This document shows, piece by piece, positions 1,684 through 64,000 of a DNA stretch of 64,000 nt. Within the stretch, counting starts at the first letter, position 1. Each line of letters opens with the position of its first letter. The position numbers and the translations under genes are program-made. The notes under the pieces were generated by a model, which saw nothing but the letters and a program-made list of their open reading frames with translations, did no database searches and was not told the origin of the DNA. Source of the stretch: Branchiostoma floridae (lineage: Eukaryota > Chordata > Leptocardii > Amphioxiformes > Branchiostomatidae); NCBI RefSeq assembly GCF_000003815.2, contig NW_023365820.1, forward strand, positions 156,451 to 220,450, read 5' to 3'.

Positions 1684-2127
1684 ACTCATTTGCTGACCCC
1701 AGCATCATGCGTCCGGCCGGCTTGGACAGTGTGGGGCTGAACGTTGTGGTCGGGGTGTCCGCGTGTGTGGGGCTCTTCGTCATCGGGGTGATGGCCGCCA
1801 TCTTCTACCACCTGGTCACAAAATCACGCAGGTAAAATCACACAATAGACACTGAGTGTTGATAATAAGAGATGAAGATCTACGACCGTTCGACAGTGGC
1901 ATCTAGCGATAGCAGTGAGTACTGCAGCGTGATTGTTAAACTGATGATAACAACCAAACGCTAATGGATATTGTTCTACCCACAATGGCGCTTGTACTGC
2001 AAAGTCATGATAATGAAAAGAAACATTTTGAATTTGTGGCTGATGTATATATTTCATGTTTTCTTTAAAATGTTTTCTTGTTTCCAGGAGTGAATTCCGT
2101 CTTCCTAAAACCCCAGAACATGGCTGA
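1684..2127 (+). CDS. Mini type I membrane protein, gene 1 (3' part, two exons)
   Basis: The exons are 1684-1831 and 2088-2127, joined at a phase-2 GT-AG intron, with a TGA stop at 2125-2127. The first exon enters in phase 1 after a pyrimidine-rich acceptor and encodes a short ectodomain (SFADPSIMRPAGLDSVGLN) running straight into a hydrophobic helix (VVVGVSACVGLFVIGVMAAI). The second exon encodes a basic tail ending RLPKTPEHG. It aligns with the TM exon of gene 2 (FADPSI.RP.GLD.VGLNVV), so the two are tandem paralogues. No signal-peptide exon is visible within the window; by analogy it should be a phase-1 exon further upstream. The function is unknown. Exon calls are firm because phase, splice sites and homology agree. 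Confidence 0.72.
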
Positions 2128-3153
2128 CACCGAACATCGCAGAGGAACGTGATACATCACAATGAAGACAAGATATGACCGCCATTTTGTGGACTGAAAG
2201 TCTTAATCTGCGTCAGCGATGGAGAATAGCTCTACACGCATAGAAATTTAACAATTGCAAGGTTTTCACTTGTGTAATCCTTAGGTACATTTCGGTTAGA
2301 AAATCAGCATCTATTAACGTTAAATGCATTATGAAAAAAAACTTTATCTTAGTTTTGACATATCTCATGTCAACCGCAGATACACTTTGGGTCTCATGGG
2401 CATTAAAAGCATGATTGCAACTTTGAAAATACACTACTTACTCGCTGTACAGTACTAAGACACTATACGGTTTGTCATCACAATATAGGTAAACAGAATA
2501 TGCTTTTTAATATAAGGTCAGATGTACCACATCTAAAAATGTACCAGTGCAAGTACAAGTTTTTTATATTTCACAAAAGCATAATATCTAAAATGTAATT
2601 TGTTGCGGAATTGGTTCTTTTACTCCTTTAAATACACTGCTTTTTGTGTGTGTGTTTTTTTTTTTTTTTCAAAAAACACCGCTTGTCTTTATGTGAGTTT
2701 TCTTTCCAATTTGGGTACTATCTATGGTCATTTAATGTAACAGTTGTTTTTTTGATTATATTTTTCCAACAAACTCTTATAATGTGTCGATCAAATTCGG
2801 CAATCGATCTACACATAAAGAGTAATGCACTGTAATGTTATTGCAGACAAAAAAAACTCACAATAGTCTCCGGCTTGTCAATATATCATTACGTCCGTTA
2901 AGAAGAGGTACAGTTTTCATTGTGTCGTTTTATTGCATAAGTGTCCGTCGTAGTTATTTGACTTTTATGAAGAAGCAGGATGTGAGTGAATGGAGACTAG
3001 CGGGATAACGAGTTGTTAGTAGGCACACTAAGGAAACTAACAGCTCCGAAAAAGGGAACAATTACAACAGAAACTCACTTAAAATTATGTTCAGATCTCT
3101 ATTTTCTAATTTGTTGTTGTAAATGCTAACCATTGGTAAATAACATGACAGGC
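2128..3153. other. 3' UTR of mini gene 1 and intergenic DNA
   Basis: AT-rich sequence without a supported exon. It begins with the probable 3' untranslated region of gene 1 and includes a poly-T run near 2657-2670. Confidence 0.5.
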
Positions 3154-3422
3154 TAGCCTCCGTTGCAGTCTTCGGAACGGGGCTTATTTTTGTGTGTATG
3201 TGTGGGGGGGCGGGGGGGGGGTGGGGGTTCGCGATATTCGTCCGCTGGATGGTGCAAAGACTCGCTATCACGGCAAACTCCCTTTTACAGCAAAATCCCT
3301 TCCTCAGCAAAATACCTTTTTCAGGCACAAGAGAACATAGCCAATGTTGAAAATCGCGAATCAGTGACCCCCTCCCCCCCCCCGCAAAAAAAAAGCCCCG
3401 TTCCGAATACTGTGGAGGGCTA
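3154..3422. mobile_element. MITE with terminal inverted repeats, copy 1
   Basis: The left end reads TAGCCTCCGTTGCAGTCTTC and goes on GGAACGGGG; the right end is close to its reverse complement (CCCCGTTCCGAATACTG, then TGGAGGGCTA). The interior is G-rich on one side and C-rich on the other. The ends are consistent with a TA target duplication flanking a GCCTCC terminus, as in Tc1/mariner-type MITEs. A second copy lies at 39207-39382. Confidence 0.7.
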
Positions 3423-3561
3423 ATGGCAGGCCCTGTTTAAATGTTTGGTCAGCTACTTACGTGGACTCAACCTTTGACCCTAACAAACGGAATGGTTACT
3501 TCAAACAAGTCAAACAACCTGTCTGGAACGACTAGTGGTGGTTGACAACAGGAGGTACAAA

Positions 3562-3634
3562 ATGTCCGCATTACAGTACGTGCTAGCAGTGTTTGGGGCG
3601 ATTCTGGTGTGGTGTGGTGAATCTTTAAGTCAAG
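3562..3634 (+). CDS. Signal-peptide exon of mini gene 2
   Basis: The ATG at 3562 follows GGAGGTACAAA and opens 24 codons with a continuous hydrophobic core (VLAVFGAILVW), ending CAAG before GTAAGT. It splits a glycine codon in phase 1, as do the signal exons at 15234, 20262 and 54623. Confidence 0.72.
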
Positions 3635-6600
3635 GTAAGTCTGAAGGAGTATCTAACTTGTATCTATTCTTGCTAGATAAACAACTCGTTGTATTGCCTG
3701 TTGTTATATGCTTAATTTGTATGTTAAGTGCTTTGAAGGGGAGTGGCACTGTTAAAAGATTGGCCGGTCAACGATAGTACAACACTGTGTTTCTGAAAGT
3801 ACAATGATTAAAAGTATACCTCTTCAAAAGTGTTAATTCAATCGTTGTAATGTGGTATCGAGTAGCTCTATAGTCTAGGGTGTCTGACCCAAAACCCCTA
3901 TTTTAGGTCATTGGGTCAAAGCACACGGTATGCTTAGACGTTATGCCATTGGAAAATTCACTTTTCACTATTTTTCTTTTCACTAAGCTGAAAATAAGTA
4001 GTTAGTTCCATAGGAGGAAGTCCCCTTAAACACGTTAACTGAAGACTCAGTGTTTGAATAGACACATCTCGAGCTCGATAAGGGGTCCTTCCAGCACCGA
4101 GGGGATCAATTAAATCTCACCGGATATGCAACGTGTACTTTTCAGTACAAACCTGGTCTGTTACTCCATGAGATGGTTGAAATGTATAACTTTATGTATA
4201 ACTTTATTGCACAACAATTGTACGAGGTACAAAGTATGGCATCTACATAACTACAGTGCTATAACTTAACTTAGGGCTTATCTAACTAATACAGGAGTTG
4301 TAGTATGGGATAAGTTTCTTACAATCATTGGAGGCTTTTACAATCACTTGGGGAATTTCTAATGTCAAAACCTTCTTTGATATATTTTCCTATATCTGCC
4401 ATGCAGGGATTGTCACATGTCATTATGTATCTGAATTTGCACTTCAGGTCCATTGGGATAAATCCTTGTGTACAAAATGACAGCCTTCTGTATAGAGAAT
4501 TGCGTATATCGGAATATTTGGGACATACAACCATAAAGTGATATTCGTCTTCGATTAGCTCTGGACAGAATGGACAAACCCTCTGGTCAATAGGGATTTT
4601 TTGGAATCTTCCGGTTTCTATATTTAATTTGTGACAGCCAATTCTGAGTTGTGTGATTGCCCTACGAACGTCAAGGCTCTTTATGGTTGAAATGTAATTT
4701 TCTTGCTTGTAATGCTTGTTCAATGTAGAAAGAGATGAGAGTTTGGAATTGTTTCGAATAGAGGAATGCCAATTTTGCACGTATATATCTTGTAAACGTT
4801 GTCGTAACTGAGTGGTGATTGTGTCTATGTGGTATGACCTCGGGTTCAGCCATATGTGTCCAAAGCCTTGGTAGTTGAGGATATTTTTTACGTGGACAAT
4901 CCAATCATGTTCTCCGAATGAAACAGTATTGTATGCCTCACGAAGAAGGGCATCTTCGGGCAGATTAACTAAACGATGCCAATATTTCACAAGTTGCATT
5001 TCTGCATCAATCCTAGCTGGGAAAGTTCCCAATTCTCCCCTGACACCATCGTTTGAGGCTTTGGCATGAATGCCTAACAGAAATTTTTGAAAGCGCATGT
5101 CAATGATGTCAAATTCTGGAATTTGTTGATTTGAGTCTAGGTTTATAATTTGGAAACCGTTATCTCGTAAAATATGGCTATTGGCATGACGCAATAGTAT
5201 TTCTTTATCTGTATTTCTTTCCAAACATACAACATAAGTAGTATTCAAAGCAGAAGAGGTGGTTTTTCGAATGGTAGCTGGAAAGTTATCTTGAATATTA
5301 AGTTTTTTAAGTAAAGTAGAAAAAACCTTTGAGGAAGGTTCGCAGATGTTATTGGTATGTGATACAATGATTCTTATACTTTTAGAAAAACGGTCAAAGC
5401 AAGTGATTTCTGAACAGTACATAAAGATGGGTTTTACAAATTTGTCAAATAGATTTTTTCCGAGATTGATTGAAATGTCCTTGTTAGAGAGTAAAAGAGC
5501 CTTGAGTTTGAAAAGTGCTCTCATTGCTTTGGTTTTCAAATATTTCCTGGCGGTTTTGAATTTTCCGGAGAATGTGAAAGGAATGCCGAGGTATGTATAG
5601 CTGTCAGTGATTTCTATATTTTTGCCATAAATATGGAATCGGTCTTTGTTATTCTTGCTAGAACTTTTGCCAAAAACAACTACCTTGGTTTTTGAAACAT
5701 TGACAGATAGCTTCCATTTCTTACAATAGTTTTCTAGGCAGTCAATACAATGCTGTAGCCCTTGTTTTGACGATGAAATCAGAGCGAGATCGTCTGCCCA
5801 GGATAAACAGTTTAGAGATTTTGAGGTTAGGACTGCAGGGTCACATTTTGTGGGGTCAAAGCACTCAGATATATCATTGATGAATAAATTAAATAATAAA
5901 GGACTAAGATTACATCCCTGCCGTACTCCGCATACGGAAGGAAAGGAGTTTGATAATCCATTATCTAATCTAACTGCATAATTCACATCATTGTACATGG
6001 ATTTTATAATATTAAAGAAATTACCTCCGATACCACATTTATGCAACTTATAGAATAGCCCATCTCGCCAAACACTGTCAAATGCCTTCCTCATGTCAAC
6101 AAAGCATACGAATAGTTTTCCGCCTTTTTTCTTGGTGTATTTGTCTATTAGAGATTTTAAGATAAAAACATTGTCGGAGGTTCTACATCTTTTCCGGAAC
6201 CCAAACTGTGTGTCATCTAGAAGTTTGTTTCTTTCTGCAAAGTTTTGTAACCTGTTGTTCAGAATGAGTGTGAATAATTTGGATAGACAACTAGAAATCG
6301 CTATTCCTCGATAGTTGTCTGCATTACTTTTATCACCTGATTTATGTATTGGCGTAAGAATACTTGTATTCCAGTTGGAAGGAAAGGTGCCTTTATCAAG
6401 TATAGTATTGAAAAGACTCACTAAAGGTTGACATAGATGTTTTGCACCATACTTTAACATTTCATTTGAGATTGAGTCGATACCGGAAGCTTTTCCCGTT
6501 TTTAATAATTTTAAACCATTTAAGACTTCCACTGGAGTGAATGGGAAATCTAAGGGATTTGGGGTATGATCATCTAACTGATTAAGGTATTCAGTGACCG

Positions 6601-9600
6601 TTTTTTCGAAGACAGTATCAAAGCTGCTGTCATTTATCAAATTATTTAAACTTGTAAAGTGGTGTATCCATTCTTCAGATGTTATATTGGGATCGCAAGT
6701 ATTTTTGTTGTGTTTTCCACTGATTTCTTTGTCCAAATATTTTAAAAGTGACCAAAATTCCTTTGGATTGTTTTTGTTGAATTCTTCCAATTTTGCTAGA
6801 AGGTCGGAATTGTACTTCTGTTTACGCTGTTTGATGAGTTTCTTGTAATCACGCAAAGCTGTGAAATATTTGCTTCTAATTTCTTTTAGCCAGGGTTCTT
6901 TTTTCAATGCCAGTGACAGTCTTTTTAAACGTTGGCGTGAAGACCAGCAGCATTGATCAAACCAAACTTTGTTTTTCTTACCGCTTTGTGCGGGTTTCTT
7001 TGTTTGTTTATTTGGCTTTGTTTTCAGTGACTTCTTTGCTACATCTAGCAATAACTCTGTAAAGTTTGTAACAGATTTTTCAGTCGAACAGAATGATGTT
7101 TGGCAGAAGTTTTGAAATTTTGAAATTGTATCTCTACTATCTAAAATACTTTTATATATTGATTTTGATTCATCTGTCCAAATGAATGCGGTTGGTTTGG
7201 GTTTTATCTGGTTAGTTGCTTTTTGAAAATGAGCGGAGTAATTTGTTGACAATGAGAAGGAAACATGACAATGATCAGAAAATTCGGAGATTGGGCTAAC
7301 ATTTACATATTGTACATCGGATAATAGAGAATTGCGCACAATACAATAATCGACAACACTAGAACCGTTGTAATGATAACAGGTAAAATCGCCTTTTAGG
7401 TCCCCCGCGAATCTACCATTTAGAATAGTTAAATCGGCTGCTGAACACAAATCTATCAATGTTTTACCGTAGTTGTTAACTTTGATATCTCTGTTCTGTC
7501 TGTTTTTGGTGAAACAGAGACCGTCTGTTATAGGATTGTCAAAGGTGAAAGTGTCAAAATGATTTTCTATCAACTGGCCAGTTCTTGCATTTAAATCGCC
7601 TAACACGACGATATCTCCTAAATTAGAGTATTTACATATGTCATTAGAGAGTATTTCAAAGGGAGATTCATTAGACGATTTAGAAGATGATTCGGGGGGG
7701 ATATAGGCATTACATAAATATAAGTCATTTTCTAAGCCAAAAAATTGCTTGTCAAACTTGCACCAAACAGTATCTACCGTACTACTAACTAATTTGGAAA
7801 TCCCTCTCCTGTACAAACTTTTAAAAATAACTGCTACCCCACCTGAATTCCGTTTAGCCCCTTTACTTCTAATTCTACTGCTAGTGAAAAAACTATAACC
7901 TGGTATGTCTAAATCTACATAACTGTCTAGCCAGGTCTCTTGAACACAAATGATGTCGCTATTTTCTACATATGAAAGAAATTCGTCATCTTTGAATTTC
8001 TTGCAACAGCTTCCCTGGATATTCCAAGAAGAAAATACTAGTGCAGATGTTTTTGGCATCCTCCGTATTCGAATAGGAGTACACAATATCTACATTGGAT
8101 TGGTATTATGACATATGCATACGAAATAGTTGTAAAAAAAAGGAGAATAAACTCCTCTAGAATTGAGAGTGAACATAGTATGAAGATAAGGAATAACTTT
8201 ACCTCTACGGCTTTACATGTCTGTGAAGGATGGTATCAAAGTTCATTTAAGGTCCCAGAAATCAAGATGTGAGAATGTCCCATGCTTTACGGAAACGCTT
8301 TCCAATCTGCTTCCACTGGAGAACTGTCTGTTTGGTGGGTCGTAACTGCAGCGTGGCGATCGGTGAAGTCGGGACTTGTAGAGTTCCATTAGACCGGCTT
8401 CCCGTGGTGATCGGTGAGGTCACGACTTGTTGGGTTCCACCAGGTCGGCTTCCTGTTGTAGGGTTTCGGTTGGATGTCAGACTAGCAGGACTGACAGGCT
8501 TCCTCGATCCAAGTGGAATGGCATTCACACTGTTCTTGAACCAGTCTCGTGTCGGGATGGCATTGTCACGTTTGGTGGCGGCAGTTTGAGGCCTTGGGTG
8601 AGCGTGTTGGTCGGAGGAGCGGTATCCACGTTGTGGGCGCGGCGTCGGAAGCTGTGGCGGGCCCGCTGTTGGTGTAGGTGGCGATGCATTGAGTGTGCGT
8701 TTGACGTCGGCAACTAGTAGTTTGGTTCCACTTCTGGGGTCTAGGTGTATTTGGTCTGGCAGGTAGAGATGTCTGTCCTGTGTTAACTTCCTGTGTTTAA
8801 TGTACGTGAAGCCAGAATTCCTGGATAGTTTGAGTACTTCTTGGTTGTATGATTTGATATTCTCATTCAGGGTGGATCTCTGATTCGGTCCTCTTTGTAG
8901 TACTTGGGACACAGCCACCCTCGCATTTGGGAAGGACTTCTTTGTCGCTTCTAGCAGCCTGTCAGTGTTACGGAGCGTCTTGTGAACTGAGTCTGAGTGT
9001 CCTTTGCTGTTATCTAGATCGTTAGATCCAACGTGTAAAATAACAGTCTTGGTTGTGGAATCCTTGATGTTGCTGATGTTGTCAACGGCCGCACTTATGG
9101 TGCTGCTCCTGTGGATCTTTGTATGGTTTGCTTTAAAAGCGCGATCTGGATCCACATCCCGAAAAAGTGAATCTGAAAAGATTCTTATCTCAACCCCGGC
9201 ATTCTCACTTCGCACATGGTTGTTCACAGATTGGGGCATGTTGGTACAGACAGCTGGTGTCTGGTCGTCGGGAACAATGGTTTGTTTGTTGTGCTTCTTG
9301 TTCACGGGAGTAAAGCCATTGTCATGTGAAGTAGACCTGTCATTGTTATGGGAACTTGGGGCTTTGTTGTCATGTAGAGAGTGCGTCACACCACAATGGC
9401 AGGTAGCAAACATCTGTTCCAAATCTTTATACCTGTCCACCAGTACCTGAATCTCTGAATCTTGCTTTGTTATGATGTCTTGTAGGTCGGCATTTGAAGC
9501 TGCCAAATCATCTACTTTCAGGGACATACTATGAAGTCTCTCTTTCCATAGGTTCCTTTCGATCGAGATCTCTTGCTTTGCTTCTGATTTCTCCTTCATG

Positions 9601-12600
9601 AGCTTTTCTTTCTGTAGAGTCATGTCTTTGCGAGAATTGTTCAGATCTGTCTGGAGTTTTGCGGTAGCTTTTCTGATATGACTTTCAAGTGCCTTCTGAG
9701 CGGCTTCGATCTGTGTGGATATGGCATTCAGACTTTTCATGTGAGCCTTCTCTCGCTCCTTTTCTTTCGCGATTAGCTCGTCCCTGAAGGCGTTGAGTTT
9801 GCCGATCGTATCTACGTATTGTTTTTGTAGATCGTTGAAGGCACTGTCACTCGCTTTTATGGACTTTTCAACAGAAATCACGCGTTCTAGATACACTTCT
9901 ACTGGAGAGTTCGATGTACCTGTTAGTGTTACGTTACGTGTGTCACTTGACTCGTTTGTTTCAGAAGTTACGCCGGATGTCACTGGGGGGTCGCGTGAGT
10001 CACCGGTTATGGCGTCACCGGCACTTTGGGCGCCATTTACAAAATCCTGTTGCAGCTGTTCTGTGAAACTGCTACCAGTTGGGGTTTCAAGACCCTCTAA
10101 TGTTCGTGGAGCGGTGGATTTGGGCATAGTCGGTGTCTCAGTCACATTGGATGGACATGGTGTCTTGGGCAAGGGCTGTTCTGTAGAGATTGTCTGGAAG
10201 CTATTGACGGCGTCCCTCACGCGTTGGACGCCATCTTTGGCGCTTGCCCTTGTACGTTTGTCAAGCATTGTTACATTGTTTTTCAGTTCAGGGTACAGTA
10301 AATCTACCCACCACTTGGTTCTTTGACCCTGAACCATTAGACCATTCTTCTTGTGGTAAAAGTGAACTGATAGAAGGCTTTTACCTGTCTTTGTTGCCGA
10401 TGAGAAGTTGACGGACAAGCTTGTTGTGCCTTGCGTGGATTTCCAGGTCACTGTTGTTCCTTTGTGGTCTTCAAAGTTCTTGTCAAAGTTGTCCTTGTGA
10501 AGTTGAATCCACTTGTCTAGCTGGCTTGTCCGCAGTTTCACTCCACACAGTCGAGACTTTTCCACGTCTTCGTAGTCGAAGGCCAGGGTTTCGTCCAGCG
10601 GGACTTTGGAGAGATTGATATTCCATGGTTTCGTCGTGGGCGTCTTACCCTTAGGCGTCTTGGACTCGGCTCCCATATTTCAATGTTCCTCTGTCGTTAC
10701 AGATGTTATTAAAAATCCTCAAAATTATAGAATACGTGAGACGTTAAGATAGACTCACATATGCACTAAAATACCTTACTCCATGTAGTATTATGGTACT
10801 CCAAACTAAGTCACATACGGAGAGCTAACGACGCGTGTCCGCGTCCGTCCGCCATCTTGATAGAACCAGTCCGTTGAAATGCAAACAAGATTAGAAACAT
10901 TCCCTCCCAAAACACTTGAAAAGCCCTACCAGGCCGCATATGTTTAGACAAGTTTCACACGTAATTATAATGGATTTATTAATGATTAACAAAGCAGAAC
11001 AAAGCAGATTTAGAGATATAAGTGACTAACAAAATGGCGCCTTGGGGGACCATGCATAGATAAGATTTCCTTGGGGGGGGGGGGGGTTCTTGCGTGCTGT
11101 GCTGATAGCATTAAAGATTTTCCCTTACAAATCTTTGAAATATTATGTACAATGTTTTGAGAACGCAACTGGGAGGATGTTATTACAGGTTGTTTTGTAG
11201 GGACCGTTCATTATACATATCCACTAGATTTTATTGTCATAAATCAAATGGAAACCAATGATGGCTGGGGTGGGGGCAGTTGGGCTGACGGCCATATTCT
11301 TTGATACTACTATGTCACACAGATCACCTGATTGATTGTTTGAGTGCCCATTTCTTTGTCTAGCACAACCGGTAAGCTTCATGTGCAAAATATGACCATG
11401 ACGTAAGACACCAGGATTGTACTGTAGAGTGCAGATTGTACATCTTACTTTACTTTACTTTACTTACTTATCCTCTTCATCCCATGTGGGACATAAGGCT
11501 GTGATAAGTTTCCTCCACTGGGGTCTGTTCTGTGCTAGGGGCTGAGCAGCATCCCAGGGGATCCCTATGGCCGCTAGGTCCTGAGCCACAGTGCGTTTCT
11601 TATTGACAAATATTGACGTGGCAGTAAGTAAATGGTCACACCCAGCTCTTGCCAGAAGTACTCTTAAAACTGCCTGTCACTAATGACTGAAGTGATAGGA
11701 AAGTTTTATATTTCTATATTACTGATTATTACTGTAGGACGTCCCCGTTTTCTTTTCTCCTCAGGGGCCCAAAGATTGTACATCTGTACATCTAAGACAT
11801 ATTTATTTGATCCACTGACATGTACACCGGGAAGGACCACTACCCTTTTCGATGAGTGTGATGGGTCTTTCATGCTCGATGTGTGGCTCTTCTCGGGGTC
11901 TTATTGTTGTATAACTCCGAGTGGCTAAAAGAGATCAGAGCCAAACGATAAACCGCTGCATGGTCGCGTGTTTTTAGCGGTGAGAAATTTCCTTTTAGCC
12001 AGCGGAACTGATCCCGAAAGTTAGATTAGTGAAAGTTTGTTTGTAACTAAAGAAATTAGCAGGTAAGGTTTTGCAGCCGCGCGCTAGGTCGGAGGTACAC
12101 AGTCGTGGGTTCTGAGTGGTGCTGTTGTACACTAGCAGCGAAAAAGTGCTTTTTTGTGGGGATTAACTAATCGTAGTTTGTAATTGCTATAAAAAAGGAC
12201 CTACGTATAGTTGACGTTGGCAATTTTCCCCACGATTCAGGGTAAATGTGCTCAACATAGAATGAAAAATCTGCTAAAATGTCACGTAGCTTCATTACGA
12301 ACGCGCCCATGCAAACAACGAATTATATCATAGAAGTCTATGGGAAGACAAAACTCATCAACAAGACCTCAAGCACAAGAATCTCTATGTAAAATCCTAT
12401 ACTATATGACGAACATTCCTAACCCAGCTAATTTTCATCCAACTGAAGTTATCAAATTCGAGTGAATTTTCTATCCCAAATGCACAAAGCCGTGTCATAC
12501 CAGGGGAATCGAACCTACGACCTCTGGATTTAAGCCAAACACACCGCAATTACGATACGACGTCGCCAAAACATCTTATGACCACTAAACCACAATAATT

Positions 12601-13534
12601 AGCTAGAAAACCAGAGTGTTGACAGTAGTGAACTAGTTACATTTCTAATATAATTTTTTTCAATAGGCTTTGCCGATCCATCCATCGTGCGCCCTCCCGG
12701 ACTTGACCGAGTGGGACTGAACGTTGTTGCTGGTGTGGCAATCGTGACTGGTGGCTACATAGTGATCGTAGCAGGGGGCGTCTTGTTCAGCAAATGGCGT
12801 GCCAGAAATAGGTAACGACTGAATTATTTACTTTCATAAAGACTTGATCTAGTGCAATGAATTGTTTTATTTTGGCGACGCCACAGAGGCGAAGCCTTTT
12901 ATATCTTTCTGGGATTTCAGTAATTGACAGAATCACAACTGACCTCGACATTTTACTATTAATTATCGTCGCTGATTGACTGAATAATTCCTTAGTTTCT
13001 TCATTCCTAAATGTTTTCCTCCCTCCCTTCCTTCCTTTCGTTCCTTCTTCCTTCTTTCCTTCGTTCGTTCGTTCCTTCCTTCCTTCCTTCCTTCCTTCCT
13101 TCCTTCCTTCGTTCCTTCGTTCGTTCCTTCCTTCCTTCCTTCCTTCCTTCCTTCCTTCCTTCCTTCCTCCCTTCCTTCCTTCCTCCCTTCCTTCCTTCCT
13201 CCCTTCCTTCCTTCCTTTGTCCGTTTCTCCCTCCGTCCCTCCCTCGCTCCTTCCTTCCTTCCTTCATTCTTTCATGCATTTATTCTTTCATTCTTTTATT
13301 CCTTCATCCATTCATTCATCCATGCATCCATGCATCCATCCATCCATCCATCCATTCATCCTTCCATTTATTCATTAAATGAACTTAATCAAATGTTTAA
13401 ACACAACTTAAGGGCACAACTAAAAATACTGCTATCTTAGCAATGCCATTTTTTTTTCATTATAGGTAATGAACTTATTTATAATCCACAGGAGAGATAA
13501 AACTACCGAAGATGAAGAAGAAGTGACTACATGA
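3562..13534 (+). CDS. Mini type I membrane protein, gene 2 (three exons, 86 aa)
   Basis: The exons are 3562-3634, 12667-12811 and 13492-13534, total 261 nt including the TGA. Phases match at both joins (phase 1, then phase 2). The product is a signal peptide (MSALQYVLAVFGAILVW, then CGESLSQ), an ectodomain of about 18 residues (GFADPSIVRPPGLDRVGLN), a glycine-rich TM helix and an acidic tail (RDKTTEDEEEVTT). No folded ectodomain is present. A full-length LINE lies in the 9-kb first intron on the opposite strand. It is paralogous to gene 1 at the TM exon, and its first exon resembles the first exons of the large MAM genes in length, phase and the ending SQ-G. Function unknown. I cannot exclude that an additional ectodomain exon was displaced by the LINE, but none is visible in 3635-12666. 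Confidence 0.65.
4060..4150. repeat. Dispersed repeat fragment also seen near 1000-1085
   Basis: The segment GATCAATTAAATCTCACCGG followed by ATATGCAACGTGTAC parallels GATCAAATAAATCTGTGCAG followed by ATATGCAGCTTGTAC near 1048-1083. The shared order of words shows two copies of one dispersed element, probably a LINE 3' fragment. Confidence 0.45.
4325..8086 (-). CDS. LINE ORF2: APE-type endonuclease and reverse transcriptase
   Basis: An open frame of 1253 codons. The N-terminal third is an exonuclease-endonuclease-phosphatase fold with recognisable catalytic blocks: SWNIQG near residue 20, a glutamate in IICVQETW, VLGDLNAR, and a final SDHCHVSF with the Asp-His pair. The middle is a reverse transcriptase: GKASGIDSISNEML, TPIHKSGDKSNADNYRGIAI, FVDMRKAFDSVW with the first catalytic Asp, VRQGCNLSPLLFNLFIND, and SWADDLAL as the YxDD-equivalent box. 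The C-terminus carries a zinc-knuckle-like CPFC...H...C pattern (CX2CX8HX4C). All catalytic residues I looked for are present and no stop interrupts the frame. It would nick target DNA and reverse-transcribe the element's RNA. The ATG at 8086 is the first in frame; a second Met lies nine codons later. Confidence 0.93.
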   Translation of the reverse strand: MCTPIRIRRMPKTSALVFSSWNIQGSCCKKFKDDEFLSYVENSDIICVQETWLDSYVDLDIPGYSFFTSSRIRSKGAKRNSGGVAVIFKSLYRRGISKLVSSTVDTVWCKFDKQFFGLENDLYLCNAYIPPESSSKSSNESPFEILSNDICKYSNLGDIVVLGDLNARTGQLIENHFDTFTFDNPITDGLCFTKNRQNRDIKVNNYGKTLIDLCSAADLTILNGRFAGDLKGDFTCYHYNGSSVVDYCIVRNSLLSDVQYVNVSPISEFSDHCHVSFSLSTNYSAHFQKATNQIKPKPTAFIWTDESKSIYKSILDSRDTISKFQNFCQTSFCSTEKSVTNFTELLLDVAKKSLKTKPNKQTKKPAQSGKKNKVWFDQCCWSSRQRLKRLSLALKKEPWLKEIRSKYFTALRDYKKLIKQRKQKYNSDLLAKLEEFNKNNPKEFWSLLKYLDKEISGKHNKNTCDPNITSEEWIHHFTSLNNLINDSSFDTVFEKTVTEYLNQLDDHTPNPLDFPFTPVEVLNGLKLLKTGKASGIDSISNEMLKYGAKHLCQPLVSLFNTILDKGTFPSNWNTSILTPIHKSGDKSNADNYRGIAISSCLSKLFTLILNNRLQNFAERNKLLDDTQFGFRKRCRTSDNVFILKSLIDKYTKKKGGKLFVCFVDMRKAFDSVWRDGLFYKLHKCGIGGNFFNIIKSMYNDVNYAVRLDNGLSNSFPSVCGVRQGCNLSPLLFNLFINDISECFDPTKCDPAVLTSKSLNCLSWADDLALISSSKQGLQHCIDCLENYCKKWKLSVNVSKTKVVVFGKSSSKNNKDRFHIYGKNIEITDSYTYLGIPFTFSGKFKTARKYLKTKAMRALFKLKALLLSNKDISINLGKNLFDKFVKPIFMYCSEITCFDRFSKSIRIIVSHTNNICEPSSKVFSTLLKKLNIQDNFPATIRKTTSSALNTTYVVCLERNTDKEILLRHANSHILRDNGFQIINLDSNQQIPEFDIIDMRFQKFLLGIHAKASNDGVRGELGTFPARIDAEMQLVKYWHRLVNLPEDALLREAYNTVSFGEHDWIVHVKNILNYQGFGHIWLNPRSYHIDTITTQLRQRLQDIYVQNWHSSIRNNSKLSSLSTLNKHYKQENYISTIKSLDVRRAITQLRIGCHKLNIETGRFQKIPIDQRVCPFCPELIEDEYHFMVVCPKYSDIRNSLYRRLSFCTQGFIPMDLKCKFRYIMTCDNPCMADIGKYIKEGFDIRNSPSDCKSLQ
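8262..10676 (-). CDS. LINE ORF1: coiled coil plus SGNH/esterase-like domain
   Basis: An open frame of 804 codons upstream of ORF2 on the same strand. The N-terminal part has a basic, Trp-containing segment around residues 50-150. A long charged helix rich in Glu/Lys (about 265-410) is a probable coiled coil for trimer or RNP assembly. At about residue 500 an SGNH-hydrolase pattern begins: IFSDSLF carries the nucleophile Ser, HVGSNDL is the block III G-x-N, and LPDQIHLDP is the D-x-x-H block V. Esterase-type ORF1 proteins are known from CR1/L2-group LINEs. The C-terminal 130 residues are Pro/Thr/Arg-rich and look disordered, with an internal repeat around TTGSR. It is predicted to bind LINE RNA; the role of the esterase is unresolved. 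Confidence 0.88.
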   Translation of the reverse strand: MGAESKTPKGKTPTTKPWNINLSKVPLDETLAFDYEDVEKSRLCGVKLRTSQLDKWIQLHKDNFDKNFEDHKGTTVTWKSTQGTTSLSVNFSSATKTGKSLLSVHFYHKKNGLMVQGQRTKWWVDLLYPELKNNVTMLDKRTRASAKDGVQRVRDAVNSFQTISTEQPLPKTPCPSNVTETPTMPKSTAPRTLEGLETPTGSSFTEQLQQDFVNGAQSAGDAITGDSRDPPVTSGVTSETNESSDTRNVTLTGTSNSPVEVYLERVISVEKSIKASDSAFNDLQKQYVDTIGKLNAFRDELIAKEKEREKAHMKSLNAISTQIEAAQKALESHIRKATAKLQTDLNNSRKDMTLQKEKLMKEKSEAKQEISIERNLWKERLHSMSLKVDDLAASNADLQDIITKQDSEIQVLVDRYKDLEQMFATCHCGVTHSLHDNKAPSSHNNDRSTSHDNGFTPVNKKHNKQTIVPDDQTPAVCTNMPQSVNNHVRSENAGVEIRIFSDSLFRDVDPDRAFKANHTKIHRSSTISAAVDNISNIKDSTTKTVILHVGSNDLDNSKGHSDSVHKTLRNTDRLLEATKKSFPNARVAVSQVLQRGPNQRSTLNENIKSYNQEVLKLSRNSGFTYIKHRKLTQDRHLYLPDQIHLDPRSGTKLLVADVKRTLNASPPTPTAGPPQLPTPRPQRGYRSSDQHAHPRPQTAATKRDNAIPTRDWFKNSVNAIPLGSRKPVSPASLTSNRNPTTGSRPGGTQQVVTSPITTGSRSNGTLQVPTSPIATLQLRPTKQTVLQWKQIGKRFRKAWDILTS
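10849..10860 (-). promoter_or_regulatory. YY1-like site near the LINE 5' end
   Basis: On the minus strand the element reads ATCAAGATGGCGGACGG starting about 10 nt from its 5' terminus. AAGATGGCGGC is the YY1 core, and in mammalian L1 such a site near the first bases positions transcription start. Function here is inferred from position and sequence only. Confidence 0.5.
10882..12481. other. Intron 1 of mini gene 2, left of the SINE
   Basis: No coding exon is supported. It holds a G run near 11071-11087, a TTTAC microsatellite near 11450-11470, and a LINE 3'-UTR-like stretch around 11800-11910 (ACCGGGAAGGACCACTACCC and GTGTGGCTCTTCTCGG). Some TE-derived sequence near 11460-11600 (CCCATGTGGGACATAAGG) is also visible. 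Confidence 0.5.
12482..12600 (-). repeat. tRNA-derived SINE head
   Basis: On the minus strand the sequence reads TGTGGTTTAGTGGTCATAAG, an A-box-like stretch, followed about 55 nt later by GGTCGTAGGTTCGATTCCCC, a near-consensus B box. A and B box spacing is larger than in most tRNA genes and no clean cloverleaf forms, so a tRNA-derived SINE is the better reading. Confidence 0.55.
12667..12811 (+). CDS. Transmembrane exon of mini gene 2
   Basis: The acceptor is CAATAG at 12661-12666 after a T-rich tract; the donor is GTAACG at 12812. The ectodomain stub FADPSIVRPPGLD is followed by the helix VVAGVAIVTGGYIVIVAGGV. It is the closest match to exon 1684-1831. Confidence 0.75.
13011..13375. repeat. 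Long TTCC/CTTC microsatellite grading into CATC
   Basis: From 13011 to about 13265 the sequence is almost pure CCTT repeats with GTTC interruptions, then ATTC and CATC repeats to about 13370. It lies in the last intron of mini gene 2. It creates open frames of Phe/Leu/Pro/Ser and Lys/Glu/Gly on opposite strands that are not genes. Confidence 0.95.
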
Positions 13535-15233
13535 TGTCATAAAGATCACCAACCCTGTGGAACTGAGAACAACAGAGGTCGATCAAAAACAGTTTAAGAT
13601 ATGCTTCTGATAATACATACTCAATGAGTACGGATGGTTTAGTCCACTTAAAGCTTTGCTTTGCTGAGCGCACTATTGTACAGTTTTATTGTACGTTACC
13701 TATAGTGAATACATCTGCAAATGGGAGTATGTTTTCTATTGATATTCCATTTCAATTAATAAATGAATGAAATAAACAAATTTCAATGGACTATACAGAT
13801 TTTGATACTCGTATGTATGTAGATTGGAATAGGAAATAATTTACGCTCATATTAGTTATTTCACGAATGAAATGCAAAGTCATTAAAGCAGTTTAAAGTG
13901 CATGCATGCCGGTGCCACCTAAAACGACGAAACAGATCTGAACCCCTAGCGGATTGCTTTGTTACTGCTGCTAAAACTACAGATGCCCAGGTGGATACAA
14001 ATTTATTGTGTATCAGAAATGTGCATGTAAACAATTACAATTGCGTTGAAAAAGATTATTTTCTATAGACCATATGTTCATTAAGGTTAATGAAACATGG
14101 AACAGTGTTTATCGCGTTTTAATATTCTTGTTATTATTTCTTTATAATATCAAATAGGCTTAGCTTATTAAAGTATCGCAAAATGGTTACTAATGTCATG
14201 CAAATGCCAAAGTAAATTCTAGAAGTCAAAGAAGACTATCATATCAAACAAAAATAAATAATTTTCTGTTCAGTTAATACCTGTGTCTTTTATTTTTAGT
14301 TTGTTCTACCTTTCTAACCACTAAGATTTCATAAAGAGTTTCTAGCAACGCTTTCAATCAAACACTCAAATTCTGTTTTAGGCCTCATGTGGGTAGGAGT
14401 CATCGAATCACCATTGCCTTGTATCACAACAACACATGCTACACCCTAGCAAACATTAATTCTATCTCTCCACACCCCTACAAAAACGTAAAATGGAACA
14501 GCCCTAATTCAAAGATGACATATTAAATAGGCTATGATCACAAAACGCCCCTCAGCATTGTTCTATTACTAAGTAACAACAAAGAGGTCCTGTTAACACT
14601 AGATAACTTTTTAACCCAAAACAAACATCTAGCCAAACGCCCAGTATTATATGGTGTGGCACTCTTTTAAGTTCTCATAGATTCTCATAGAGTTAGAGGC
14701 AAAACTTTAGGCAATATTAATGTATAATAAATGTTCTTTAAAGGAAACGTATTTTTTTTCATTGCAAGCTTGTACACAGAATGACAAAGCTTTTTTTGCC
14801 AAAAATATGCATGTTGGTCTAACTACCTCGTTCTTTGTAACAATGACGCCATATATGTACTCCGCCCATTTGCTCATGACTAATATGTCACCAACATAGC
14901 CTCGTATACAGGTTTTGAAAAGGGGCCTGTACAAAACGCCTTTCTCTGTCATTCATATAAACCCCCGTAGTTTGCAGCCATAGCCAAAAAATGACCACAA
15001 TAGAATCAATCTTTTTGATATTCGTCTATTTTTTAGCCAATAAAACAGTATTTTCTGATGTAGCGTTGTTTGCGCACCCCTTAGTAACGCCTGTGCATAT
15101 AGGCTACATTCTAATCAAACATACACCAGAGGGGAAAAAAGCCCGAGAGTGCAAACCTGACAGAAGAAGCTAAGACTCAACTTGGTACTATCAACTTTAA
15201 CATTGTAATACCAAGATCGTAATCTCCGTAAAG
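13535..15233. other. 3' UTR of mini gene 2 and intergenic DNA
   Basis: Two overlapping AATAAA hexamers at 13758-13763 and 13771-13776, about 230 nt after the stop, are the likely polyadenylation signal of mini gene 2. The remainder up to 15233 is AT-rich and shows no exon I can support. Confidence 0.55.
13758..13776 (+). promoter_or_regulatory. Polyadenylation signals of mini gene 2
   Basis: AATAAATGAATGAAATAAAC contains two AATAAA hexamers at a suitable distance downstream of the stop at 13534. Confidence 0.5.
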
Positions 15234-16595
15234 ATGTTTCCTGTGCAAGAGTTTAACACCAGGAGGCTTCTGATTGTGCTTGTGTTTGGAATGATGTGGA
15301 CATTTTCAACACAACAAGGTAAGAGAAAAACATTGCATCAGAAAACGGAATAGAGAGAGGTTTTTGCTTCAAGTACTTGTCTAGTGTTACAGTAAAATTG
15401 ATTCAAATCATAGTGTTTGTCAGTTTAACGACTATAAAACATTACAAAGCGACTGTTTTAAATCTGTTTTGTTTAAAGAATACGGATAGTAATCATTTTA
15501 CCGGTTGTGTGTTATGTTTACTTCAGGTATACACTATTTAAGCTGTTACTTTCCAAATTCATTGTCAAGAAATGGAAACTTAAACTAAGATTCAAAGACA
15601 GTTCGCCTAATGTCATCCTCGTAAATTCGGCTTGCTTTTCTTTGATATTTTGATTGTGATACGTGTATACTGTTGTAAACAAAGATTCGAAAGAAGATTG
15701 GCTCCGCTGAAGGTAAAACATGTTGAACTCAAGTATATTGTGATTAACAGAGGTGTCAAACAGAAAATGTTATATGTTCAATCATTTTGTTTAGAACTTC
15801 ATGAATTTCTTATTACTTTTCCAATTTTTGTGTGTAGTTTTACTTAGTTGCTGTGTGCCACGCCACATGTAAACAAACCGACACAAGGAGATATTCAGAA
15901 TGTCTAGGGGACTGTTTATTCAGCACAAAAATATAACACTTATGACAGAAATTTGTGTCTTTATCATGACAGAAGTTGATAGGGAACAAGGCCCTCTCGG
16001 ACTGAAGCGTACGGAGTTTAACGTTGTTGTCGGCTCGGCGGCTGTCATAGGCGTCGTCCTCCTAGCGGTCATCGTCGTCACATGCAGGAGCGTATACGTC
16101 AAGAACAAAAATGGCGGCGACCGGTAAGGGGGGAGGGGGGCAACATTTGTATTAGTAGTGTACTTTGTTTTTGGGTTATAAACCATTTTGGGGGATGTTA
16201 ATTGTTGTCCTGATATAAATTTTCACACTATGAATGAACCGTCAATATAAATTCTAAAAAAAATACGGGAAAAATATGATAAAGAATATGGAATGATCAT
16301 GACAAAAATCAGTAAGAAAGGAGGTATATACTTTATATACACTTACATATTACAAGTGATCCGAATGATACAACTGGTTAACAATGGGAAATAGATTGAA
16401 GTAATACTACTGTTTTAAGATAAATTCATCACAATCTATTAGTTGCTAGCCAAATATGGTGTTTGGGGGCTGAGAAATGTCTTGTGTACTTTTCATGACC
16501 TCATCGCAATGTTTTTGTTTACTCTGTACACAATGACTGTATGTCTCATCGCTGTACTTTTCCGTTGTTTCAGGGAGGCATCAACACACCTTTGA
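15234..16595 (+). CDS. Mini type I membrane protein, gene 3 (three exons, 85 aa)
   Basis: The exons are 15234-15318, 15973-16123 and 16574-16595, total 258 nt with the TGA at 16593-16595. Joins are phase 1 and phase 2, identical to gene 2. The signal peptide is MFPVQEFNTRRLLIVLVFGM, continuing MWTFSTQQ; it resembles the signal peptides of MAM genes A and B (LxLVF...WT.S.QQ). The ectodomain is about 17 residues (EVDREQGPLGLKRTEFN), the TM helix VVVGSAAVIGVVLLAVIVV, and the tail ends NKNGGDREASTHL. It is the most diverged of the three minis at the TM exon but keeps the GL...NVVVG core. It lies about 3.7 kb upstream of gene A on the same strand. Function unknown. Confidence 0.68.
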
Positions 16596-20261: not shown

Positions 20262-20349
20262 ATGTGTTGGACTGTTTTCTTGAGGAATGTGAACTGTGTG
20301 ATGCTGGGACTGGTGTTTGCCCATCTGTGGACCTTATCTATGCAGCAAG
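20262..20349 (+). CDS. Gene A signal-peptide exon
   Basis: The ATG at 20262 starts [20 protein letters not shown], continuing HLWTLSMQQ, ending phase 1 before GTAAGA. Its length of 88 nt equals the signal exon of gene B (54623-54710), and the sequence is alike (LGL.FA..WT.S.QQ). Confidence 0.82.
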
Positions 20350-32900: not shown

Positions 32901-34563
32901 TCTACCCCAAGGCCTGGACCAACAAAGCCGTCAACGGGAAAGCCGACCACGGGAAAGGCGCCCCCGTGCGGAAAAGACTGTACGACAGTGCCTGATTACA
33001 AAGTGACGGGGAAATCGGAGGCACAGGGGGGTCTGTCTATAGGGATCATCGTTGGGGCAGGAGCTGGCGGAGCGGTAGTGGTTATACTGGTCGTTGTGAT
33101 CATCATCGTCGCTGTCAAGTGTAGAAGAAGGTTAGTAGAGAGTACCCTATGTCAGATTTTCATAGCTTACTTGTAGTAATTGCAGCATATTGAATAATTA
33201 TTGTGAATTGAAAGTTTTATAGCTTTGAATGCCACGATTCTCTTCATACAACATAGTGCTTAATTCTACGGACGTTATGTAGGTAAATTTGACTGGTTCA
33301 CATTGCACTGCAGCATAGGTGCCGCTGCTTACTGATGTGATCCCAAATGTATAGTGTTTACATACACATATTTTTCACATAAATTAATGCATGAACATTG
33401 TAAACAACGCATTAACAAAGCATGTACAAATGTTAATACATAACGTGTAGGACTGCATATGTGCATGTAAAGACCAACACCTGTACTTAAGTGCAACGGT
33501 CACCGAAACGTCTTTTGAATTAAGCACTCAGTTGTGTATCAAAATATTGTTATTGGGTGACTTACCTGTCTGATGAAACTACCAGTATCAAATTGGATGA
33601 AAATCTTGTATCATTCATTACATTCAATAAAACCTCTTCATTAGCTTATGGCTGTCTTAAGTTTACAAGGCATCTACTAACAATCTGAAGCAAAATTAGT
33701 AGATACAAGAACGACATCTGGATATTGATATGAAGATGTGTTTTTTTGTTTGTTTCAGCAACACTAACAGACAGAAGGATTCAGAATGGGAAGTCGCCAA
33801 CCCGATGTACGATGTATCTATGGGGCCGACGAAAAATGGAAACAACAACAACAAGAAAGGGTTCGTTCAGACCCTTATCAATAGTTAGGCCACATTGACA
33901 GCGCTTTGTTCTTTGCTCTTTCATATAACATACTTTCATATAACATAACAATAATCATCATTCTTATGACGAACAGTCATCAAAATCATTCATTAGTATG
34001 CATAAAGAAGCTCACCATGTTTAACACTTTTATTATTGTTTCTCAATCAAAATAAAAATGCAACAATATTATCAAGCACTTGAGGACCGTCCCCTTAACT
34101 CAAGTGATGTCTTTTTTGCAGAGGAAAGACGGACGACGATTTCTACACCTTCAAGTAAGTATAAACTTTTAATACTATCCGCTTTTGAGTGTCATTCTCA
34201 TCTGGTACATTGAAATATTGACAATAATGTTTTTTGCCCATGTCAAAACCACAATTCCATTTGTATTGTCTATATAAGTAGGGCTAACAGCTTTTTCGTA
34301 CTAATAGCAACGGGCTAGTTATGCTATACCCTGGCTGTGAGTCCTAGATAACAAAACAAATAAATAGATGACTTGATAAATACTACATTTTGCTGTGTTT
34401 TGTGAGTATTTTTATTAACAAATCTCCATCACTGTTTGTTATGCATTTCTCTATGTATATTGACAGTACTTAATCATTGTACGGAAGTTTTTTTTTTATT
34501 TATGTTGTAATATATGTTCTGTGTGTTTATTTCTTGAACAGTATGGACACAAGCAACGTATAG
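20262..34563 (+). CDS. MAM gene A: four-MAM mucin-like type I membrane protein
   Basis: I reconstruct 18 coding exons: 20262-20349, 21195-21326, 22104-22360, 22583-22667, 23021-23158, 23548-23804, 24157-24241, 26149-26346, 26707-26838, 29764-30023, 30258-30357, 30599-30730, 31158-31417, 31571-31655, 31798-33130, 33759-33860, 34122-34154, 34542-34563. They sum to 3699 nt, divisible by three, with compatible phases at every join, giving about 1232 residues. Order: signal peptide (1-29), MAM1 (about 30-187), MAM2 (188-347), Thr-rich linker (348-413), MAM3 (414-577), MAM4 (578-736), Thr/Ser/Pro-rich mucin region (737-1125), TM helix (about 1150-1176) and a cytoplasmic tail with NPMY. MAM domains mediate extracellular adhesion or dimerisation in meprins, neuropilins and receptor phosphatases. 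No enzyme or LDL-A domain is present, so an adhesive or epithelial-surface role is inferred. An assembly gap lies in the intron after MAM2. Confidence 0.85.
21195..22667 (+). CDS. Gene A MAM domain 1 (three exons)
   Basis: Exons 21195-21326, 22104-22360 and 22583-22667. The first has [20 protein letters not shown] with two cysteines; the second has YYMYIET and [10 protein letters not shown] with the third cysteine; the third has [18 protein letters not shown] and the final PC. These are the four conserved MAM cysteines and core strands. The phases are 1, 1, 0, 1, the pattern repeated in every MAM unit here. It matches MAM1 of gene B ([15 protein letters not shown]). Confidence 0.92.
23021..24241 (+). 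CDS. Gene A MAM domain 2 (three exons)
   Basis: Exons 23021-23158, 23548-23804 and 24157-24241. The four-cysteine pattern is kept ([21 protein letters not shown]). The second exon ends [15 protein letters not shown], which pairs it with MAM2 of gene B (WHNATVGLVAGSNSY). The third exon begins LVFEGVRG and ends at GTAAGT. Confidence 0.9.
24414..25015. other. Assembly gap (602 N) within gene A
   Basis: Run of N between MAM2 and the Thr-rich linker. The flank on the right is an (AT)n repeat. The homologous intron of gene B is only about 250 nt and holds no exon, so a missing exon is unlikely but cannot be ruled out. Confidence 0.98.
25323..25486. repeat. Tandem GC-rich palindromes (foldback element)
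   Basis: Two consecutive inverted repeats with 30-bp arms and 11-nt loops: 25323-25352 pairs with 25364-25393, and 25416-25445 with 25457-25486. The arms share GGGGCAGTCCCCGCGTGTCC and differ at their tips (AAACCGTGC versus AAACATTGT). Related words (GCACGGTTCGGGGC) continue to about 25560 and back to 25260. The composition differs sharply from the AT-rich surroundings. It resembles a foldback or MITE-like insertion. Confidence 0.8.
25935..26020. repeat. Third GC-rich palindrome of the same family
   Basis: TGCCCCGTTCCGTGCCTGAA at 25963 is mirrored by GGGCACGGAATGGGGCA ending near 26001, with CACGGGTTGGGGCA following. The vocabulary is that of the 25323-25486 palindromes, so the two blocks may be parts of one element spanning about 25250-26020. 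Confidence 0.55.
26149..26346 (+). CDS. Gene A Thr/Ala-rich linker exon
   Basis: 198 nt, symmetric phase 1-1, between MAM2 and MAM3. It encodes a low-complexity O-glycosylation-type linker ([17 protein letters not shown] and similar). The donor is weak (GAAA followed by GTACAA), yet this is the position that restores phase into the next MAM exon and gives Arg rather than the usual Gly before DCNFD. Gene B has an equivalent linker at 58397-58546. Confidence 0.68.
26707..30357 (+). CDS. Gene A MAM domain 3 (three exons)
   Basis: Exons 26707-26838, 29764-30023 and 30258-30357. The first exon has the variant [20 protein letters not shown] and SSDHTGNG, matching MAM3 of gene B ([15 protein letters not shown]). 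The second has [19 protein letters not shown]. The third is longer than usual (100 nt), ending TPCPDPPED. The intron between the first two exons is about 2.9 kb and contains repeats plus a promoter-like segment. Confidence 0.9.
26912..26952. repeat. TTTC microsatellite
   Basis: About ten tandem TTTC units inside the first MAM3 intron of gene A. Confidence 0.95.
27313..27569 (+). promoter_or_regulatory. Promoter-like segment in a gene A intron
   Basis: Two perfect CArG boxes CCATATATGG (27313-27322 and 27349-27358) flank CACGTG at 27332-27337. Downstream come CCAAT boxes in both orientations (about 27474 and 27492), a TATA-like ACATATATGT at 27531-27540, and a short GC-rich stretch ending in a consensus donor (AAAA before GTAAGT at 27564). 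The order resembles a small promoter with a first exon. No coding sequence follows that I can link to it, so an alternative gene A start or a TE promoter are both possible. Confidence 0.35.
30599..31655 (+). CDS. Gene A MAM domain 4 (three exons)
   Basis: Exons 30599-30730, 31158-31417 and 31571-31655. The four cysteines are present ([22 protein letters not shown]). The middle exon is nearly the same as that of MAM4 in gene B ([27 protein letters not shown]), the closest domain pair between the two genes. The third exon, [20 protein letters not shown], ends phase 1 into the mucin exon. Confidence 0.92.
31798..33130 (+). CDS. Gene A mucin region and transmembrane exon
   Basis: A single 1333-nt exon. 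Almost 390 residues are dominated by Thr with Ser, Pro, Glu and Ala and contain loose repeats ([19 protein letters not shown]), expected to be densely O-glycosylated. It is followed by a short Cys pair (PCGKDC), then [20 protein letters not shown] and a run of Val/Ile as the TM helix, then the stop-transfer KCRRR. The acceptor may be ATTAG at 31797 or TAG at 31800; both keep frame. The donor is GTTAGT. Confidence 0.85.
33759..34563 (+). CDS. Gene A cytoplasmic tail exons
   Basis: Exons 33759-33860, 34122-34154 and 34542-34563. The tail reads [20 protein letters not shown] and ends DDDFYTFNMDTSNV. NPMY fits the NPxY motif recognised by PTB-domain and clathrin adaptors, and FYTF adds a second tyrosine. 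The first donor (GG before GTTCGT) is non-consensus; if it is not used, translation runs on for eight residues (FVQTLINS) to a TAG in the same exon, giving a shorter tail without the second tyrosine. Confidence 0.72.
34255..34368 (+). repeat. LINE 3'-end fragment, copy 1
   Basis: A fragment containing GGGCTAACAGC, GGGCTAGTTATGC and CCCTGGCTGTGAGTCCT with an AAATAAATAG tail, inside the last intron of gene A. The same order of words occurs at 51450-51575 and, inverted, at 56284-56330, so it is one dispersed family ending in (AATA)n. Confidence 0.6.

Positions 34564-54622: not shown

Positions 54623-64000
<9,378 letters not shown>

Follow-up and report, generated by a model that had tools for sequence, protein, structure and literature searches.

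The window analysed here, 64,000 bases of Branchiostoma floridae DNA, lies in a 602,090-base contig (NW_023365820.1, hereafter C262; window = C262:156451-220450, the contig coordinate being the window position plus 156450). Three short genes at its upstream end were taken in a preliminary description as a tandem family of membrane proteins of about 85 residues, built on the chassis of two downstream MAM genes (A and B) and lacking any ectodomain domain. The locus raises the question of whether such genes form a genuine family and how their products could act. Our analysis revealed that the genes form a real family, predicted to encode small type I membrane proteins; it is larger than first noted, new as a family to the resources searched and of a kind already known. 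The reading we favour, with about even confidence, is that the genes encode tandem small type I membrane proteins acting by lateral docking, not by tail signalling.

The mini genes and their predicted products

Examination of 304 kb of C262, together with genome-wide searches (513,431,437 bases in 431 contigs), revealed five further copies of these genes, here called minis, upstream on the same strand. The three genes first described are real (gene 1 = m6, gene 2 = m7, gene 3 = m8) and are the last in a row of at least eight, m1 to m8, running along one strand. The genome search began with a permissive first screen and scored just its top candidates, so the copy numbers of the family are lower bounds. 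Each mini consists of a signal exon ending in phase 1, a transmembrane (TM) exon ending in phase 2 and a short tail exon with the stop codon, with the following starts (signal/TM/tail exon):

C262 61540/64054/64451, forward strand: m1
C262 72514/75499/75884, forward strand: m2
C262 82233/88581/92884, forward strand: m3
C262 119613/122295/122685, forward strand: m4
C262 139112/141008/141395, forward strand: m5
C262 155631/158134/158538, forward strand: m6
C262 160012/169117/169942, forward strand: m7
C262 171684/172423/173024, forward strand: m8

In all eight genes the TM exon is preceded by a separate signal exon, at a distance of 0.65-9 kb. A signal-exon scan of the 304 kb returned 27 rows, 14 of which were the eight mini signal exons and those of MAM genes A and B (some repeated) and 13 were other places. 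The products are 86 residues long in m2-m7, 85 in m8 and 77 in m1, where a stop falls just past the helix; the full frame, giving 85-86 residues, is open in seven of the eight. The exons of the last three genes are as follows:

C262:155631-155703 (window -819 to -747), forward strand: m6 signal exon, MACFNHLLTVFGTLLALAVTTWGE/G, about 0.8 kb before the window
window 1684..1831, forward strand: m6 TM exon, DSFADPSIMRPAGLDSVGLNVVVGVSACVGLFVIGVMAAIFYHLVTKSR
window 2088..2127, forward strand: m6 tail exon, SEFRLPKTPEHG then stop
window 3562..3634, forward strand: m7 signal exon, MSALQYVLAVFGAILVWCGESLSQ/G, phase-1 donor GTAAGT
window 12667..12811, forward strand: m7 TM exon, GFADPSIVRPPGLDRVGLNVVAGVAIVTGGYIVIVAGGVLFSKWRARN, phase-2 donor
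window 13492..13534, forward strand: m7 tail exon, RDKTTEDEEEVTT then stop
window 15234..15318, forward strand: m8 signal exon, MFPVQEFNTRRLLIVLVFGMMWTFSTQQ/G
window 15973..16123, forward strand: m8 TM exon, EVDREQGPLGLKRTEFNVVVGSAAVIGVVLLAVIVVTCRSVYVKNKNGGD, phase-2 donor
window 16574..16595, forward strand: m8 tail exon, EASTHL then stop

Gene 1 had been seen in part, by the TM and tail exons inside the window, and the search added its own signal exon upstream. The four junctions predicted for m7 (3634/12667, 12811/13492) and m8 (15318/15973, 16123/16574) were confirmed as canonical GT-AG joints in the predicted phases.

Among the 2,819 open reading frames (ORFs) of the window, the TM exon of m6 found that of m7 at E=4e-11, with m8 as the next match (0.011), and the reciprocal query with m8 found m6 at 0.0071 and m7 at 0.079; the TM exons of m8 and m7 matched each other at 0.08-0.11. 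Genome-wide, the m8 TM query returned itself and then the m3 TM exon at E=1.47. Since these matches are weak, the kinship of m8 is judged from weak similarity combined with position and structure. The motif FADPSI-RP-GLD-VGLNVV, described as common to the three TM exons, is carried by m1-m7, and m6 and m7 are related beyond chance, but the similarity of m8 is weak. The genome-wide searches located the TM exon in no further gene, and outside the eight minis only as one frameshifted relic; judged by sequence similarity, the tandem family in this genome is confined to the C262 locus and that relic, within copy numbers that are lower bounds.

A Pfam scan of m5, m6, m7 and m8 (E up to 1) gave no family at the cut-off, the MAM domain included, and only sub-threshold matches to Mid2, Rep_1B and FeoB_associated; a PDB search with m7 alone gave two matches (E 0.28 and 1.3) that were judged to be chance. 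No description of the mini family was found in the titles and abstract openings of the literature, with subscription journals mostly outside the scope. The earlier statement that no family of this form had been described agrees with these searches.

If exons encoding an ectodomain had been overlooked, the minis would be short isoforms or 3′ ends of larger genes. A module inserted in intron 1 between phase-1 joints would keep the frame, m7 intron 1 is 9 kb long, and the TM-to-tail phase of the minis is the same as that of MAM gene A. Part of m7 intron 1 is occupied by a retrotransposon:

window 4328..10679, reverse strand: non-long-terminal-repeat (non-LTR) retrotransposon in m7 intron 1, with ORF2 (4328-8089; endonuclease and reverse transcriptase) and ORF1 (8265-10679; GDSL-like esterase match), long open frames of 1254 and 805 codons

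An earlier scan of m7 and m8, with thresholds stricter than the weakest splice sites of the minis, found no candidate exon outside the retrotransposon. When the splice thresholds were lowered to zero, intron 1 of m8 held no open exon from phase 1 to phase 1, and that of m7, retrotransposon included, held only two (10 and 11 residues), of which one falls within the retrotransposon. There were 24 candidates in total in intron 1 of m1-m6, and the sole one common to at least four genes was of 15 residues and was uncalled in m2 and m6. We therefore rejected hidden ectodomain exons in intron 1, no shared candidate exceeding 15 residues in m1-m6 and none exceeding 11 in m7 or m8. A full-length relative with an ectodomain that uses the mini signal exon was also rejected, as the m5 signal query reached nine places: m1-m6, the inverted fragment carrying the m6 signal exon, a copy on contig C9 and a decayed one. 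The pairing of each TM exon with its own nearby signal exon likewise speaks against larger genes, and we consider this explanation very unlikely. The description of signal peptide plus TM proteins of about 85 residues without an ectodomain domain thus holds for eight genes.

The minis, with 77-86 residues, a hydrophobic N-terminal run and one uncharged hydrophobic segment of 21 residues, appear by sequence to fit the kind of small type I single-span microproteins. None of the eight has a charged residue in the 21-residue window of the TM segment, and in all eight the second glycine of NVVxGxxxxxG is preceded, at a distance of four positions, by a small residue (small-xxx-Gly). Once the signal peptide is removed, the mature protein would consist of an outer part of about 20 residues, a single TM helix devoid of charge and an inner part of 6-22 residues; the outer part is thus not clearly below 20 residues, contrary to the first estimate. 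A structure model of the m6 TM exon (48 residues; alignment of three sequences) gave one helix at residues 11-47, with predicted local distance difference test (pLDDT) scores of 81-97 for the block from residue 11 onward. Because the predicted helix starts right after RP, GLD-VGLNVV may form an outward extension of the TM helix. The positions kept between m6 and m7 are the outer motif into the first membrane residues (NVV) and the two TM glycines, whereas the rest of the helix and the tails differ among m6, m7 and m8, and m1 has no tail. This distribution suggests docking via the outer motif and glycine face, not signalling by the tail: in the manner of FXYD proteins or SERTM2, the minis would use their juxtamembrane segment and the glycine-bearing side of the helix to dock laterally onto a larger membrane protein (a channel, pump or receptor) or onto their own kind.

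Alternatively, the minis could present a short extracellular peptide tethered to the membrane, or be its precursor, the 20-residue outer segment being the active part and maybe released. Conservation is concentrated in that segment, and a dibasic KR lies between the motif and the helix of m8. However, m1-m7 have no dibasic pair at this position, the kept block extends into the membrane (NVV and the two glycines), and the model places GLD-VGLNVV in the TM helix. Such display or release appears highly improbable.

Selection and decay among the copies

Comparison of exons with introns is consistent with retention of the TM exon. Between m6 and each of m1-m5, 12-13 of 148 TM-exon sites differ (8-9%), compared with 28-50% in intron 2 (70-72 of 244-255 sites against m1, m2, m4 and m5; 120 of 239 against m3), a contrast with Fisher p from 7e-7 to 1e-18. 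For closer pairs the same contrast gave p=0.018 (m4-m5), 0.087 (m2-m4) and 0.007 (m2-m5). Alignments of m6 with m2, m4 and m5 showed 91% identity over the TM exon versus 67-76% in intron 2 just after it, and among m1-m5 variable columns numbered 6/148 in the TM exon versus 227/1507 in the intron (p=3e-5). No indel was found in the TM exon and the last 73 signal-exon columns in any of the 15 pairs of m1-m6, whereas the initial part of intron 1 showed 10-58 such events. Neutral simulation at the intron divergence of m5 and m6 gave a mean identity of 24 of 49 residues, with a maximum of 37 in 20,000 runs; the observed value was 42.

Between m6 and m7, nonsynonymous differences in the outer block amounted to 7.0/45.8 sites and synonymous ones to 11.0/17.2 (p=3e-4). 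Over 40 codons the difference remained significant (p=0.004), and the second 20 codons gave no clear difference (24.3/43.5 nonsynonymous versus 10.7/16.5 synonymous). Identity of the two proteins was 17/20 in FADPSI-RP-GLD-VGLNVV versus 4/27 elsewhere (p=3e-6). Judged from these substitution patterns, the outer motif is kept by selection between m6 and m7. Together with the exons free of indels in 15 pairs and the open frames of seven of the eight genes, this purifying selection upholds the earlier argument against simple decay. The comparison of nonsynonymous (dN) with synonymous (dS) divergence among copies, proposed in the preliminary description, revealed constraint relative to the introns and little of it by dN/dS within m1-m6.

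Several observations weigh against the docking reading. In the TM exon of m1-m6, dN was about 0.07-0.09 and dS 0.11-0.15 (dN/dS about 0.5-0.8), and in the signal exon dN (0.23-0.28) exceeded dS (0.09-0.18), so that the recent copies show little protein-level constraint. Among the variable codons of m1-m5, four were nonsynonymous (one being the m1 stop) and two synonymous in the TM exon, and six and one, respectively, in the signal exon, where 8 of 91 variable columns were not significantly below intron 1 (p=0.06). No constraint was seen between m6 and m8 (dN 0.75, dS 0.99, NG86). The TM frame stayed open in 50% of the neutral runs, and an open TM frame alone is therefore weak evidence. Identity of m6 with m2, m4 and m5 was 80-91% around the signal exon and up to 88% in parts of intron 1; the TM exon is thus not the sole conserved stretch, and gene conversion could partly account for the low exon divergence. 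Three acceptors of m7 and m8 score only at the 90th-95th percentile of all AGs in the window on the generic consensus tables used, and the signal peptides and their cleavage were judged by eye from the hydrophobic run and the small-residue rule. The docking step is one that we infer, with a hypothetical partner. Finally, the premature stop of m1, the dead relic on contig C9 (25.4 Mb) and stray signal exons indicate partial decay within the family. The decayed copies are as follows:

C9:5061581-5071580 (10-kb stretch L034), reverse strand: relic TM exon, frameshifted by one base; the opposite strand carries a TRIM-like ORF next to it
C262:46708-46622, reverse strand: inverted copy of the m6 signal exon with the same protein reading, in a 312-base fragment of 90.7% identity
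C262:134187: decayed signal exon with a stop

Aligned to m5 and m6, the C9 relic stops short of the tail, which an exact-pattern search of the 10 kb also failed to find; a signal-exon match (E=0.45) lies about 5.5 kb upstream, beyond this stretch. On the strand following the inverted signal fragment, neither a mini TM exon nor a known domain was seen by eye in the ORF list.

These remnants raise the possibility that the minis are expressed stubs in slow decay, that is, functionless truncated relatives of larger membrane proteins that multiplied passively with TRIM-containing duplications. The dN/dS of the TM exon in comparisons of m6 with m1-m5 and the excess of dN in the signal exon would fit this explanation, as would the m1 stop, the frameshifted relic and the stray signal exons. 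Against it stand the purifying selection on the outer block, the absence of exon indels together with the seven open frames, and the far smaller divergence of the m6 TM exon than of its introns. We regard functionless stubs as unlikely, although less so than the other alternatives considered here. Under the docking reading, the family would evolve by birth and death, partly together with the neighbouring TRIM-NHL genes.

TRIM-like and MAM neighbours

Four of the eight minis (m2, m3, m5 and m6) are each in head-to-head arrangement with a TRIM-like ORF, the ORF ends being 1007-1070 bases apart; m1, m4, m7 and m8 have no such head-to-head ORF.

C262:70044-71507, reverse strand: TRIM-like ORF beside m2, short (488 codons)
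C262:79117-81216, reverse strand: TRIM-like ORF beside m3
C262:135980-138076, reverse strand: TRIM-like ORF beside m5
C262:152498-154561, reverse strand: TRIM-like ORF beside m6

RING, B-box and NHL domains were identified by Pfam in the neighbour of m6, the sole one checked, and over about 250 columns ahead of the mini start m6 matches m2, m4 and m5 at 84-89%. It is conceivable that a mini and its head-to-head TRIM-NHL ubiquitin-ligase gene are copied and expressed as a pair, forming a co-regulated expanding module, e.g. in immunity, in which the micro-membrane protein would tune a surface receptor or channel via its outer motif; we give this module little probability. It was also noticed that an LDL-receptor class A repeat array with Thr-rich linkers is located on the minis' strand between m3 and m4 (L002:3-842 = C262:106453-107292).

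The two MAM genes follow the minis on the same strand:

window 20262..20349, forward strand: MAM gene A signal exon, phase 1, followed by MAM exons
window near 33130: phase-2 donor of the combined stalk/TM exon of gene A, with the tail exon at 33759
window 54623..54710, forward strand: MAM gene B signal exon, phase 1

Of the MAM exons of A and B, ten pieces were scanned and all gave a PF00629 match. Signal exons were compared in 15 shuffled comparisons among six exons (m1, m6, m7, m8, A and B; 2000 shuffles). For m8, only 1 of 2000 shuffles reached the score against A, and likewise against B. The signal exons of m1, m6 and m7 showed no resemblance to A or B (250-1979 of 2000; m6, 740 and 1577; m7, 1979 and 1766). 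Among the others, m1 versus m6 and A versus B gave 0/2000, m6 versus m7 gave 2/2000 and m1 versus m7 gave 1766, while m8 was not significantly similar to m1, m6 or m7 (455, 446 and 126 of 2000). Genome-wide, the A signal query found only A and B and the m8 signal query only itself, leaving the families unlinked. The claim of signal exons like those of the MAM genes thus stands for the phase and for the sequence of m8, but not for the sequences of m6 and m7; likewise, the proposed MAM-gene chassis retains the m8 signal exon and the phases and loses the signal exons of m1, m6 and m7 and the genome-wide link. These results suggest that m8 may be a hybrid or link between minis and MAM genes. According to PMC1626468, phase 1 is generally widespread near signal-peptide cleavage sites, which leaves descent of the whole mini family from a MAM gene weak.

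That the minis are regulators, decoys or assembly partners of the MAM proteins, descended from a common ancestral gene whose MAM exons they lost, would agree with their adjacency and shared strand, the equal phases at both joints of gene A and the resemblance of the m8 signal exon to A and B. However, m1, m6 and m7 lack that resemblance in their signal exons, the genome-wide signal queries did not link the families, and the shared phase is the generic one. The MAM proteins also differ from the minis in having MAM exons and Thr-rich stalks; the TM exon of A holds such a stalk, has a TM sequence unlike that of the minis and lacks the mini motif. Beyond adjacency, nothing was found pointing to the MAM proteins as partner, and this origin and role appear quite unlikely.

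Other features of the MAM region were also noted. The tail of gene A (window 33759-33890) contains NPMY, which we take to be a possible NPxY adaptor-binding motif. A long TPR ORF is located between A and B (window 47675-50911); its nephrocystin-3-like TPR match narrowly missed the cut-off. At the end of gene B (window 63800-64900), no TM exon was seen in the ORF list after the Thr-rich exon and before the next gene, which reads by eye like a GDSL esterase; MAM B may be secreted, or its last exons may have been missed.

Comparison with known small membrane proteins

Genes of three small exons such as these are easily overlooked by gene prediction. As an array in which selection on the 20-residue outer motif can be measured, the minis offer an invertebrate-chordate test case both for membrane microproteins and for the birth and loss of such genes beside larger receptor and TRIM genes.

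Adaptors of the DAP10/DAP12 type have a signal peptide, a very short outer part and a single TM helix, features shared by the minis, together with a charged TM residue and a YxxM or immunoreceptor tyrosine-based activation motif (ITAM) tail. Membership of the minis in this group was rejected: none of the eight has a TM charge, no DAP10 match was found by Pfam in m5-m8, and the tails (YHLVTKSRRSEFRLP, YHLVTKSRRSEFRLPKTPEHG, FSKWRARNRRDKTTEDEEEVTT and RSVYVKNKNGGDREASTHL) show by eye no YxxM or ITAM.

FXYD proteins, regulators of the Na,K-ATPase, are of about 60-95 residues, with a removable signal peptide, a short outer motif (PFxYD) standing before a single TM helix, conserved glycines and a variable tail. 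The minis are similar in size, signal peptide, short conserved outer motif beside a glycine-bearing helix and variable tail, as far as these can be predicted from the genes, and differ in their two-intron coding structure and eight tandem copies. Membership in the FXYD family (presumably PF02038) was rejected, as there was no Pfam match in m5-m8 and the motif of m1-m7 is FADPSI-RP-GLD-VGLNVV, not PFxYD.

SERTM2 is described in PMC12019361 as a TM micropeptide of type I, for which the TASK1 channel is an interactor. Like it, the minis would be small type I single-span proteins, likely of unrelated origin, and by analogy the channel interactor of SERTM2 suggests how a mini might dock onto a larger membrane protein.

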